From assembly GCA_027008645.1 (NCBI GenBank), contig JALVEE010000267.1, forward strand, positions 1 to 64,000: a stretch of DNA of 64,000 nt. Reading direction: 5' to 3'. A program made the translations under genes and the position numbers. Shown here piece after piece: positions 3,519-8,175 of the stretch. Position 1 is the stretch's first letter. Every line of letters begins with the position of its first letter. This DNA is from Saprospiraceae bacterium (lineage in GTDB: Bacteria > Bacteroidota > Bacteroidia > Chitinophagales > Saprospiraceae). The notes under the pieces were generated by a model, which had not been told where the DNA came from, did no database searches, and saw nothing but the letters and a program-made list of their open reading frames with translations.

Positions 3519-4058
3519 TTGGATTGGGTAAAAGAAATAAAAGAAAACGAAAACAGGGCGTTAAAACTTTTGTATAAAACTTACCGGACAGATGTTTTTT
3601 CGTGGTTAAAAAAAACTTATAGTCTTGACTATGAAACCAGTGCTGATATTTTCCAACAAGCTGTTATAATAATTTATGATAAGGTCATTCAAAATAGACT
3701 GTCAGAAGAGACAGACAATGTTAAGTCATATCTTTATGGAATTTGTAAAAACAAAGCATTGGAACATATAAAATATATTAAAAAAGAGCATGATAAAAAA
3801 CAGAATTATTTGACCGGTTCTATAGTAGAAAATAAAGACCAAGAAAGTGATTTTAAACAAAAAAATATTAAAATCATTCAAAAAATTTTAGAAAAAATCG
3901 GACATCCTTGTAAAGAGATTTTGGAATTATTTTATTACAAATCATGGGATTTTGAGGAAATTTGTGAGAAAATGGGCTATAAAAACACAAATACAACAAA
4001 AAATTTAAAATATAGGTGCTTAAAAAGGTTACGATTACTGTTTTTTGACCATGTATAA
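3519..4058 (+). CDS. ECF-type RNA polymerase sigma factor
   Basis: Region 2 (ALKLLYKTYRTDVFSWLKKTYSLDYETSADIFQQAVIIIYDK) and region 4 (CKEILELFYYKSWDFEEICEKMGYKNTNTTKNLKYRCLKRL); TTG start, no in-frame ATG. Confidence 0.87.
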   Translation: MDWVKEIKENENRALKLLYKTYRTDVFSWLKKTYSLDYETSADIFQQAVIIIYDKVIQNRLSEETDNVKSYLYGICKNKALEHIKYIKKEHDKKQNYLTGSIVENKDQESDFKQKNIKIIQKILEKIGHPCKEILELFYYKSWDFEEICEKMGYKNTNTTKNLKYRCLKRLRLLFFDHV

Positions 4059-4106
4059 GTAGAAAGAGTTATCGGATGCCGGAAAATATTTTTTCCGGTT
4101 AAAAAA

Positions 4107-4847
4107 ATGGCAAAAAAAATTGATATGACAAATGAAAGGATTGATATAGATCATATAGACCGTTATCTACAAAACGAGTTAGATAACAAAGAGAAAACTT
4201 TATTTGAAGAACGATTGAAAAACGATGCCGAATTTAATGAATTGTTTTTATTTTTGAAAACACTAAAGGAGAGTGTCAGGTATAGTGTTTTAAAAGAAAA
4301 AGCCGATCTACTAAAGGAATACGAATCATATATCCAAAATAATAAGCCAGGTAAAAACGGTAAGTTGAAAATATTATATTTTGCAGTTTCTGTAGCAGCA
4401 ATATTTCTAATACTTATATTTTTTGTTCCGGATATGATGAATTTCAAAAACAAAAACCAACCCATTTCACAATACTTTGAAGCCTATCCAGCACATGTTT
4501 TAAAAAGAAGCAGCAAACAAGATATATCAAAATTAAAACAAAAAGCATATGCCTATTACGGCATAGCAGATTATAAAAAGGCGTCTTCGCTCTTAGCTGA
4601 ATTATGTGATTCCGGCGATAAGGAAAGTTGCTTCTATACAGGTGTGGCATTACTCGGTTCAGGAAATCCCTCTAAAGCTTTGGTGTTTTTTGAGATAGAA
4701 AATTTACCATTTGATAAATCGACTATATTTTGGTACAGAGGATTATGCTATTGGGAGTTGGGTAAAAAACAAAAAGCAAAAAGCATTTGGAAGAATATTG
4801 ACAAAACCAGTCCTTATTTTAATAAAGTGAATAAAATTAATAAATGA
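4107..4847 (+). CDS. Anti-sigma-factor-like membrane protein with C-terminal TPR-like region
   Basis: N-terminal helical IDRYLQNELDNKEKTLFEERLKNDAEF segment, single TM (ILYFAVSVAAIFLILIFFV), TPR-like ectodomain; directly downstream of the sigma factor. Confidence 0.65.
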   Translation: MAKKIDMTNERIDIDHIDRYLQNELDNKEKTLFEERLKNDAEFNELFLFLKTLKESVRYSVLKEKADLLKEYESYIQNNKPGKNGKLKILYFAVSVAAIFLILIFFVPDMMNFKNKNQPISQYFEAYPAHVLKRSSKQDISKLKQKAYAYYGIADYKKASSLLAELCDSGDKESCFYTGVALLGSGNPSKALVFFEIENLPFDKSTIFWYRGLCYWELGKKQKAKSIWKNIDKTSPYFNKVNKINK

Positions 4848-4851
4848 TACT

Positions 4852-5391
4852 ATGATAGAAAATAAAAGTAAATGTAAACCCGGTACACCGGCTATTTCCT
4901 CTCAAATAGTCAGCTGTATAATCAAGCAAAAAGCACTAAATAATAATTTTGGTATAGTCACGATTAACGGCACTGATGTTGCGTATTTTAATTATAATAA
5001 TATTTATTCTTACAATGTAGGAGATTCCGTATTTTGCTTTGCTTCGGATAATGCAGGAATAGATATTTTCATCTCGGGAAATCTTATTCCATATCCTGCC
5101 GGAATAAATAAAATAGCGTACAATTTGCATACTCCGAAAAAATCATTGGCTGTTTACGGAGGTCCTCGGAAAGGAACTAAAAAGGATTTACCACCGGAAA
5201 TACCGGAAGAAGGGAGTAATTCCAACGGTTTGGTCTATATTTTCAATGACTGTGGAGAAACGGCTGTTATGAATGAAAATCCCAATATGGCAAATACATG
5301 GGACAGGGGTGAATTAGTTGTGGTAGGTGCACACAAAAACTTTGTATTATATGATTACGTAGGACCAACGGCGGGTTCTTGGCAACCATAA
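4852..5391 (+). CDS. Hypothetical protein of 179 aa, no recognised domain
   Basis: Starts 4 nt after the preceding stop; no signal peptide; coding-like composition. Confidence 0.7.
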   Translation: MIENKSKCKPGTPAISSQIVSCIIKQKALNNNFGIVTINGTDVAYFNYNNIYSYNVGDSVFCFASDNAGIDIFISGNLIPYPAGINKIAYNLHTPKKSLAVYGGPRKGTKKDLPPEIPEEGSNSNGLVYIFNDCGETAVMNENPNMANTWDRGELVVVGAHKNFVLYDYVGPTAGSWQP

Positions 5392-5397
5392 TAAAGT

Positions 5398-8175
5398 TTA
5401 CTTATAGAGAACAAGACTACCGATATATGATCTTTTCTGATTGTTGTTTCTAATAGTTTCCAAATATGACAATTTAGCTTTTCTCAATGCCTTGGAATAA
5501 TGTATGAAATTCTCATTTCTAATAGTTTGATAAAAAGAATCAATTATGCTTTTTGATGCTTCATCATCCAAATCCCACAAAGAAGATATGACTTTTTGAG
5601 CTCCACCGGCATAAAATGATTTTGCTATACTATACATAGATTCCTGATTATAGGCTTTCCCTCTTGCAGATTGGCAACTGCTTAGTACCATTAGATCCGG
5701 ATTAATATCGTGATTCATCAATTCGTAAGGATATAAGGGAGATATTTTCTTACCATCTCTAAAGTAGATGCAACTTCTGAACCTGGAGTTTTCATCCGCT
5801 TTACCGTGTAGTGCCAAATGAATTATCGAATAGTCTTTTGCATAGTCAAAAAAATTATTCTTTGTTGACTCCATACCTGAAAAAACCATGCATTTATCTT
5901 TAAACATTTTTTTTATGCCCTGTACTTCCCTGAAACCACCCGGTAATTCAGTAAGACTGTCGATGTCCCAATCTGAAATGGTTTTGCTATCGGAGTATGA
6001 GAAAGCTAAAACCGTATTGGTCTTTTCTTTTACACCGGAATATAAAAGAAGATTTCTAATAGAAAAAGAATATGAAACATCAAAATCTTCAATAAGCATT
6101 TTATTGCTTCTCATATCGGTTACCAATAATTCAAATGGTATATTATATAAATTTCTATCCGGAATTATAAGTAAGGAATTTGTATTTTGTTTTTTGAAAT
6201 CATCATTAACAAAAAACAACAATTTGTCATACAAATATGCAAGTTTTAGGTTTAAAATAGAATCCTTGGAACTAAATCCCGAAAGCATCTGATATGTAGA
6301 ATCGGTTTGTTTCAATACATTTGATACATTATCAATGGAATAGATTTTTGACAAATTACCATCAGAGACAAATACATATCCTTTATCGGTATCAAAATCA
6401 CCAAATGGGAAAAAATAATCAACTAAAATTTGATTGTTTAAACGGCAATACTCTTCGATTTCTCCCAATGTATTTGTATTGGATAATCCTGTTTGTAATG
6501 GAAGTTTATAATTTTCCAATCGCTTTAATTCTCTATTCAATAATGCGTTGATAGAGTCTGATTTAGTCTTTTTTTCGTTAAGTTTAAATCTTATTTTCTC
6601 TATTTTTTGTTTCAATTCTTTTAATTCGCTATTAAAACTATTATAAGCCATCCTTTCTTTCAATAGAGTCATCCCTTTGTATTTACTAAGGATATCTATC
6701 GCCATAGTGAAATATTTTTTATCCCTTGTTTTATTGTACAAAGTATAGCAAAAATCAAAATAATGATAATAATACAAATCAAGGCTTTGTTGATTGATCA
6801 ATGTGACATCTTGATCGACGGAATTATAAAAACCGGAAATCAGACTATCTACCAAAGCGTATTTTTCGAGGGCGTATTTATGGGAAACCAAAATATTTTC
6901 CACTTTTGCCTTATCTGAATAAATAAAGGCAATATTGGATAAATATTTTATCAATACCGGATCGCTGTAAAATGCATTCAAATCACTATTATTATCTTTT
7001 AAAAGGGCTTGGATACAACGATTACCATAATAGATAGCTTTATCATAATTTCCTTCTACTCTTAATTTATCGCTGTACAGATAACATGTTTCAGCAAGGT
7101 GATAATAATTAGGATTTTTAGTAGAATTATATATATCAAATGCTTTTTTAAAAAATCTATCTGCTTTATCAAATTCATCGGATTCTAAAGATAAAATACC
7201 TTTTAGTTTGTACGAGAGAGCTTTTGTATCATTATCGTCTTTAGACAGGGACAAAAGTTTATTTATATATCGATTAGCCTGTTTTATACTGTCCAATTGT
7301 GTTAAGGCATTGATAATACCGATATAGAAATTTTTCATATAATAAGCTGATATATTTATTTGCTCTCCCAATTCAATTGCTTTTCTTGAATAATTTACAG
7401 ACCTATTATATTTTTCGTATTCGTAAAGCACATTTGATTTAAGATCATAAGCCAAAGCTATACTTAATTTATTTTTAATCTCATTTGTCATAATATTCAG
7501 AGCCATATCAAGGTATGTCAAACTCAATTGATACTTGTGCAATCTCCTGTAAATAGTGGCTTGAGTATAATAATTCTTATATTTTAATTTACTAAAAACA
7601 GAGTCTTTTGTAAATAATTTTTCCTGCTTTTCCAAATAGTATTTTGCAGAATCAAGACAACCACCATAGTATGTACATGCTATTCCAATGTCGCTCAATG
7701 CTTTTACTCTTTCAAAGCAATCACCATTTCTTAAAGATTCATCATTAAAGGCAATCTTTTTGAGATAAAAAATGCAGGAATCTAACGATCCTTTTTCTAA
7801 GAAAAAATTAGATTTTTTGTTATAAAAATCCATTTTGAGTGATATATCAATATCCTTATTGGAAGACAATATTGAGTCATTTAGAGAAATATAATGCAAA
7901 ATACTATCATAATCAAATTTATACTTGTATTGTTCCAACATCAAATTAGATAAAAACACTCTTTCTTCCGTATTAAAACCGGAATCAAAATATATAGAAT
8001 TTAGTTCGGAATAATCATGTTTATTTACCAATGAATCAATTTTCACCAAAGTAGTATCTTCCGGTTTATATATACAATTTGCAATACGATTCACTCTCTT
8101 AGCCTTTTGTTTGCCGGGTTTTGAACACGATAAAGCGAATAGTAAAGTTAATAATATAAAAAATCTAAAAGGCAT
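5398..8175 (-). CDS. TPR-CHAT domain protein (caspase-like peptidase) with lipoprotein-type signal
   Basis: N-terminus MPFRFFILLTLLFALSCSKPG (lipobox-like LFALSC); TPR-like helical repeats; CHAT motifs HLALHG (His codon 5806-5808) and LMVLSSCQSARG (Cys codon 5674-5676). Confidence 0.9.
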   Translation of the reverse strand: MPFRFFILLTLLFALSCSKPGKQKAKRVNRIANCIYKPEDTTLVKIDSLVNKHDYSELNSIYFDSGFNTEERVFLSNLMLEQYKYKFDYDSILHYISLNDSILSSNKDIDISLKMDFYNKKSNFFLEKGSLDSCIFYLKKIAFNDESLRNGDCFERVKALSDIGIACTYYGGCLDSAKYYLEKQEKLFTKDSVFSKLKYKNYYTQATIYRRLHKYQLSLTYLDMALNIMTNEIKNKLSIALAYDLKSNVLYEYEKYNRSVNYSRKAIELGEQINISAYYMKNFYIGIINALTQLDSIKQANRYINKLLSLSKDDNDTKALSYKLKGILSLESDEFDKADRFFKKAFDIYNSTKNPNYYHLAETCYLYSDKLRVEGNYDKAIYYGNRCIQALLKDNNSDLNAFYSDPVLIKYLSNIAFIYSDKAKVENILVSHKYALEKYALVDSLISGFYNSVDQDVTLINQQSLDLYYYHYFDFCYTLYNKTRDKKYFTMAIDILSKYKGMTLLKERMAYNSFNSELKELKQKIEKIRFKLNEKKTKSDSINALLNRELKRLENYKLPLQTGLSNTNTLGEIEEYCRLNNQILVDYFFPFGDFDTDKGYVFVSDGNLSKIYSIDNVSNVLKQTDSTYQMLSGFSSKDSILNLKLAYLYDKLLFFVNDDFKKQNTNSLLIIPDRNLYNIPFELLVTDMRSNKMLIEDFDVSYSFSIRNLLLYSGVKEKTNTVLAFSYSDSKTISDWDIDSLTELPGGFREVQGIKKMFKDKCMVFSGMESTKNNFFDYAKDYSIIHLALHGKADENSRFRSCIYFRDGKKISPLYPYELMNHDINPDLMVLSSCQSARGKAYNQESMYSIAKSFYAGGAQKVISSLWDLDDEASKSIIDSFYQTIRNENFIHYSKALRKAKLSYLETIRNNNQKRSYIGSLVLYK

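Follow-up and report, generated by a model that had tools for sequence, protein, structure and literature searches.

A candidate ECF sigma factor module of Bacteroidota combining a membrane antisigma protein with an exported CHAT protein as its putative protease

The stretch of DNA analysed here, referred to as the window, comprises 64,000 nucleotides of contig JALVEE010000267.1 from a Saprospiraceae bacterium whose genome (GCA_027008645.1) is available as a 4.1-Mb draft that is 96% complete. Within the window lie the genes for an extracytoplasmic function (ECF) sigma factor, a membrane-spanning antisigma-like protein (hereafter antisigma), a short orphan protein and a large protein composed of TPR repeats and a caspase-like CHAT domain (Table 1). 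In the original prediction, made from the sequence of the window, these four open reading frames had been regarded as a circuit in which the CHAT protein cleaves either the antisigma ectodomain or the orphan, thereby releasing the sigma factor. All four reading frames were confirmed, and comparison with related loci suggests that the CHAT protein is a protease dedicated to the antisigma, which it would cut after a single conserved residue, R134.

Table 1. Positions in the window of the four genes and of the protein features discussed in the text
Feature	Position	Strand	Basis and remarks
ECF sigma factor, 179 aa	3519..4058	+	TTG start; TIGR02937 (sigma70-ECF), 58.8 bits vs cut-off 42.9
Membrane antisigma-like protein, 246 aa	4107..4847	+	Cytosolic helices 7-78, TM 87-109, linker, TPR ectodomain 142-245; AlphaFold pLDDT 82.7
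Predicted transmembrane (TM) helix, antisigma residues 87-109	4365..4433	+	Hydropathy, AlphaFold
Conserved membrane-proximal motif YFEAYP (family consensus YFEPYP)	4473..4490	+	Alignment; ordered in model, block pLDDT 87
Candidate cleavage site R134/S135 of the antisigma	4506..4511	+	Basic-small or Met-small in 159/168 modules; pLDDT <50 at 134-137; top covariation column
Orphan open reading frame, 179 aa	4852..5391	+	No Pfam, NCBIfam or PADLOC match
Exported TPR-CHAT protein, 925 aa	5398..8175	-	Pfam; AlphaFold fold matches
N-terminal export signal of the CHAT protein, ending LFALSC (possible lipobox, C17)	8125..8175	-	Sequence; similar end in same-genus homologue L054
Helical TPR region of the CHAT protein, residues 41-554	6514..8055	-	Pfam TPR_12, AlphaFold
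CHAT domain, residues 647-915 (H790, C834; S832 in loop L4; D871)	5431..6237	-	Pfam, model secondary structure, alignments
D871 codon, putative S1-pocket acid	5563..5565	-	Top mutual information with antisigma site class

The sigma factor is recognised by the general ECF model, the separate Pfam models of the sigma regions all being below their cut-offs. The antisigma had been described as a protein with one TM segment and a TPR-like ectodomain, and this description is borne out: the ectodomain is a helical repeat modelled with a pLDDT above 90, its fold matches are TPR proteins, and the Pfam TPR matches are weak (24.6 bits). Hydropathy assigns one TM segment to 165 of 168 family members, and the positive-inside charge bias orients the N terminus towards the cytoplasm in 150 cases and in the opposite direction in 5. 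The cytosolic domain of eight of the 168 relatives (L086, L092, L107, L296 and four others) contains an HxxxCxxC zinc motif, absent from the window protein, through which the family may be connected to the zinc anti-sigma factors. The linker of the antisigma begins just outside the TM segment with the ordered YFEPYP-like motif and continues as a variable stretch with a single conserved position, that of R134. Across 168 modules this position is occupied by Arg in 120, Met in 25 and Lys in 14, as called by pattern (about 20 modules have a linker longer by two residues), and the next residue is mostly Gly, Ser, Asn, Asp, Thr or Ala. In the AlphaFold model, low confidence is confined to a stretch at 134-137, between the ordered motif that precedes it and the ordered TPRs that follow.

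The CHAT domain of the window protein scores 134 bits against a Pfam cut-off of 24, and TPR_12 scores 48 bits. Its two catalytic motifs, HLALHG and LSSCQSARG, had been taken to be intact; H790 and C834 are present in 124 of 124 CHAT proteins from linked pairs. The best Foldseek matches of the AlphaFold model are Csx29 (8eey, E=2.1e-13), DdvA (8rw5, 6.7e-12) and human separase (9hn5, 2.8e-10). DdvA is among the top structural matches with two entries (8rot and 8rw5) and is also the top PDB sequence match (E=1.8e-8) in a search with an alignment of the CHAT core, which was used because the full-length profile was swamped by TPR matches. According to hydropathy, a hydrophobic N-terminal signal is present in 109 of 114 complete linked CHAT proteins, and a C-terminal TM segment in 95, of which 93 have a positively charged tail. 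The CHAT proteins of the window genus, and a few others, have no C-terminal anchor and possess a signal that ends in a lipobox-like sequence; LFALSC matches a relaxed lipobox, the same-genus homologue at L054 has LFWSC, and this end is a plausible, putative lipidation site. The prediction that the CHAT protein resides outside the cytoplasm is thus in agreement with an export signal in nearly all linked pairs, contrary to a cytoplasmic CHAT protein. The linked TPR-CHAT proteins fit a periplasmic location with anchoring in the inner membrane, and from the topology signals of both partners the CHAT protein and the antisigma ectodomain should meet in the periplasm. A role in anti-phage defence was considered and rejected, as no PADLOC profile matched any of the four genes.

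Separate searches with the antisigma and with the CHAT protein covered 61 related genomes, in which 50 of 96 antisigma matches lie within 8 kb of a CHAT match, as compared to 1.66 expected by chance. Neighbourhoods around antisigma matches were then taken from Saprospiraceae, the wider order and other Bacteroidota. In 154 of the 179 family members found, the antisigma gene is immediately preceded by an ECF gene on the same strand. Flanking sequence of at least 6 kb in both directions was available for 84 ECF-antisigma modules, and 61 of these have a CHAT gene no more than 6 kb away. The linkage of ECF, TM-TPR and CHAT genes therefore extends well beyond chance, as had been anticipated. The CHAT gene is convergent to the module in 43 cases, divergent in 38 and on the same strand in 30; because these layouts differ, the linkage is not that of one inherited block but has persisted despite rearrangement. 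Members of the antisigma family occur in 274 of the 399 genomes from the order, and a broader antisigma profile, the weakest matches of which may be TPR-only, matches 166 of 393 genomes of a phylum sample, with Aquimarina, Kordia and the Cytophagales among the named examples. When CHAT loci were chosen by CHAT similarity alone, a module occurred within 6 kb in only 21 of 80, which indicates that CHAT proteins have other roles too. Some Bacteroidota have many TPR-CHAT genes that are not linked to modules, and L118, L151, L157 (Aquimarina) and L177 have CHAT genes in tandem but lack a neighbouring ECF module. At one locus, L225, two ECF-antisigma pairs lie tail to tail and share one CHAT gene about 4-5 kb away.

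Linked proteins can be compared residue by residue, and the covariation that this comparison reveals, which singles out the linker of the antisigma, is the strongest evidence for the proposal made below. In the first 61 pairs, CHAT position 871 was Asp in every pair with an Arg site, and the exceptions, E871, Q871 or T832, were paired with non-Arg sites. A rule for a Met pocket was written down before loci L223-L242, which include most of the Met-class loci, were collected, and nearly all of the newly added Met pairs had E871, T832 or both. In the final set of 112 pairs, from which L225 was omitted as ambiguous because of its two antisigma genes and one CHAT gene, a standard pocket (D871 without T832) accompanies 93 of 94 Arg or Lys sites and an altered pocket (Glu, Asn or Ser at 871, or T832) accompanies 17 of 18 Met sites. 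Of the 150 CHAT columns, 871 shares the most mutual information with the antisigma site class; conversely, of the 228 antisigma columns, 134 shares the most with CHAT 871. In Pagel-type tests of correlated evolution, the CHAT tree, from which the two tested columns had been excluded, gave likelihood ratios (LR) of 25-35 (p 4e-5 to 5e-7), and the antisigma tree, made without the linker residues, gave 36-45. In the four usable genomes, those with both classes, pairing by adjacency was always right, which has a permutation probability of 0.03. These results give good support to a predicted contact of R134 with the CHAT pocket. The window genome itself agrees with the pattern, as it has a second antisigma, of the Met class (contig C314, L076, 1098-1847), and a second CHAT protein, with E871 (contig C58, L002); the two genes are on separate contigs, and their products may form a second cognate pair. 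At L275, the CHAT protein has Ala at both 832 and 871 together with an intact dyad, and its partner antisigma has no recognisable basic or Met site.

The two pocket positions are located where a determinant of specificity would be expected. In clan CD proteases, P1 specificity is set by helix alpha1, loop L4 and loop L5 (PMC4357240). In caspase-7 (Gln184) and MALT1 (Asp462), the residue that lies two positions ahead of the catalytic Cys belongs to S1, and its counterpart in a separase model, Met1038, contributes to the base of the pocket (PMC4626109). S832 is likewise two residues before the catalytic C834, and D871 is, in the AlphaFold model of the window protein, the first residue of helix alpha4, immediately after L5. 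In the region matching D871, the P1 Arg is bound by Glu500 of MALT1, in L5, and by Asp1082 of separase, towards the N-terminal end of alpha4. Asp2151 of human separase, which in the human sequence is about 4 residues further from the catalytic Cys, is presumably not the exact equivalent of D871 and shares only the same segment. Both 832 and 871 are thus within the P1-specificity segments of the clan. Csx29 provides an independent, experimentally grounded check of the P1 rule, through a weak alignment in which it has Ser at the equivalent of 871. Its cleavage of Csx30 has been assigned to Met427 (PMC10028731) and also placed after Leu407 (PMC9729208); with Ser in the pocket and a hydrophobic residue at the cut, Csx29 fits the rule, as far as the weak alignment allows.

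Based on these observations we propose a protease-gated ECF sigma module in which the CHAT protein is the dedicated site-1 protease of the antisigma and cuts it after R134, a reading to which we assign a probability of about 0.7. Site-1 cleavage of an ECF anti-sigma factor on the outer face of the membrane, followed by cleavage by a site-2 protease (S2P), is the mode of action of DegS and RseP on RseA, which controls sigmaE, and of PrsW and RasP on RsiW, which controls SigW. The serine protease DegS and the multi-pass protease PrsW differ from the CHAT protein in that they are not caspase-like and are not supplied as one dedicated protease per paralogous module. In the order of events that we infer, the N-terminal helical domain of the antisigma would hold the ECF sigma factor in the cytoplasm, with the TPR domain displayed in the periplasm next to its dedicated protease, the exported and membrane-tethered TPR-CHAT protein. 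A cue would activate the CHAT protein, with the TPR superhelix as the likely sensor by analogy to Csx29, the TPR domain of which relays activation (PMC10028731). The activated CHAT protein is likely to cut after R134, in the flexible linker, some 25 residues beyond the outer end of the TM segment. The remaining stub would be suited to S2P, and its clearance, as in the DegS/RseA pathway, would free the sigma factor; the genome encodes one M50 (S2P) protease above the cut-off. Each paralogous module would have an Arg/Lys or Met site suited to the S1 pocket of its own CHAT protein.

Several observations weigh against this proposal. About a quarter of the modules have no CHAT gene inside 6 kb, and the basic site is likewise conserved in those modules (Fisher p=0.24); because R134 is about as common there, its conservation alone does not prove dependence on the CHAT protein. 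The Met-class pairs belong mostly to one clade in both trees, and by parsimony the site class has changed only about 4 times and the pocket state 4-5 times. L238, with a Met site and a standard pocket, is a clean exception, and L103 combines a Lys site with E871. Finally, the antisigma domain of the window protein is below the cut-off of every curated antisigma model searched, and its relative at L066 reaches 19.3 bits against NF052375, the cut-off of which is 100.

Covariation indicates contact rather than catalysis, and the active site of the CHAT protein might therefore bind the linker without cutting it, as a securin-like pseudosubstrate or a docking site, with other envelope or secreted proteins as the real substrates. 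Such substrates could be found among the exported proteins whose genes are enriched beside modules (see below). However, cleavable sites typically have this form, a basic residue or Met and then a small residue within a flexible loop; the catalytic dyad is retained without exception, and the homologous Csx29 does cut its sigma inhibitor (PMC10028731), all of which makes binding without cleavage unlikely. The direction of the effect cannot be read from the sequence, so that cleavage might instead shut down or reset the pathway, for instance if it destroys a free sensor domain. The cutting of RseA by DegS and of RsiW by PrsW activates the respective sigma factor, and the inhibitor is cut to the same effect in the Csx29/Csx30 system (PMC10028731). 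Release of the sigma factor in the proposed module rests on this analogy, which leaves the shut-down alternative rather improbable. Still less probable is that the genes are neighbours for another reason, either because both belong to the sigma regulon or because they travel together, and that the residue match reflects shared ancestry. The concentration of the Met class in one clade is what this explanation would lead one to expect, but independence is rejected by the correlated-evolution tests on both trees, and adjacency predicted the correct partner in all four two-class genomes. The alternative substrate of the original prediction, the orphan, is the least credible of all, for although its gene sits between those of the antisigma and the CHAT protein, it is confined to one genus, in contrast to the phylum-wide ECF-antisigma-CHAT trio, and no export signal was seen in its sequence; the other predicted substrate, the ectodomain, is favoured by the covariation, which narrows it to the single residue R134 near the membrane.

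The orphan is known from only 3 copies, all in the genus of the window, with 45% identity between two species, and is probably an output gene rather than a core part of the module. Genes encoding C-terminal sorting domains of the type IX secretion system (T9SS) account for 45 of 299 genes beside modules, as compared to 41 of 901 further away (odds ratio 3.7, p=1.6e-8), and from this enrichment exported proteins are probable targets of the modules. T9SS-sorted neighbours occur, for example, at L066, L071 and L093. At L085 (G020:C38, 11147-12970, + strand), a gene for a protein of the thiol-activated cytolysin family (125 bits) separates an ECF-antisigma module from its CHAT gene and is a possible output.

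Among the systems described previously, DdvS/DdvA of Myxococcus xanthus shares with the module an ECF sigma factor, a transmembrane anti-sigma factor and a TPR-CHAT-like region with intact His and Cys motifs. DdvS acts once DdvA has been inactivated, in response to an unknown signal (PMC4374960). In DdvA the CHAT region is inside the antisigma polypeptide, whereas here it is a separate exported protein, encoded on the opposite strand in the window, that would act in trans on a short TM-TPR antisigma. In its topology DdvA is nevertheless a closer precedent than Csx29/Csx30. The type III-E system, in which the original prediction had seen a likeness, resembles the module in that a TPR-CHAT protease, Csx29, cuts a sigma inhibitor, Csx30, that acts on CASP-sigma (PMC10028731). 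The comparison is sound as an analogy, since Csx29 is the best structural match (8eey), but the activator of Csx29 is Cas7-11 together with target RNA, while the CHAT protein of the module is exported and its inhibitor is a membrane protein. No match to a Cas7-11/RAMP protein (PF03787) was found in the 96% complete genome; the module is therefore not a type III-E system. Separase shares the combination of a helical-repeat scaffold with a caspase-like domain and the preference for Arg at P1, but is eukaryotic, acts on cohesin in chromosome segregation and is controlled differently.

In one study, only 6% of the ECF sigma factors of Bacteroidetes adjoined a class I anti-sigma factor, as compared to an average of 32% over phyla (PMC7406223). 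To the question of how this phylum controls its other ECF sigma factors the module, which occurs throughout the phylum and often in several copies per genome, suggests an answer that can be stated in terms of named residues, with an exported caspase-like protease, a cleavage site and an S1 pocket, and its mechanism is accessible to single-residue swaps (R134M with D871E). If the proposal is correct, the CRISPR-linked Csx29/Csx30/sigma circuit would be set in a wider, CRISPR-free context. A literature search, which did not extend to the main ECF classification papers or the DdvS/DdvA papers, found no description of CHAT proteins with ECF sigma factors in Bacteroidota. One may speculate, with somewhat more doubt than confidence, that the modules constitute a large undescribed class of envelope signalling in Bacteroidota, in which every paralogous ECF sigma factor is paired with an exported caspase-like receptor-protease of its own and with a cleavage site that follows a matching P1 code (Arg/Lys or Met) and helps to insulate parallel pathways in one cell; the class would in part control T9SS-exported proteins, and both the CRISPR-linked Csx29/Csx30/sigma circuit and the DdvA fusion would have branched off from this older circuit.

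Directly upstream of the module, at 630-2568 and on the same strand, the window contains genes for a sensor histidine kinase (His_kinase family) and a LytTR response regulator, which are not evidently parts of the module.

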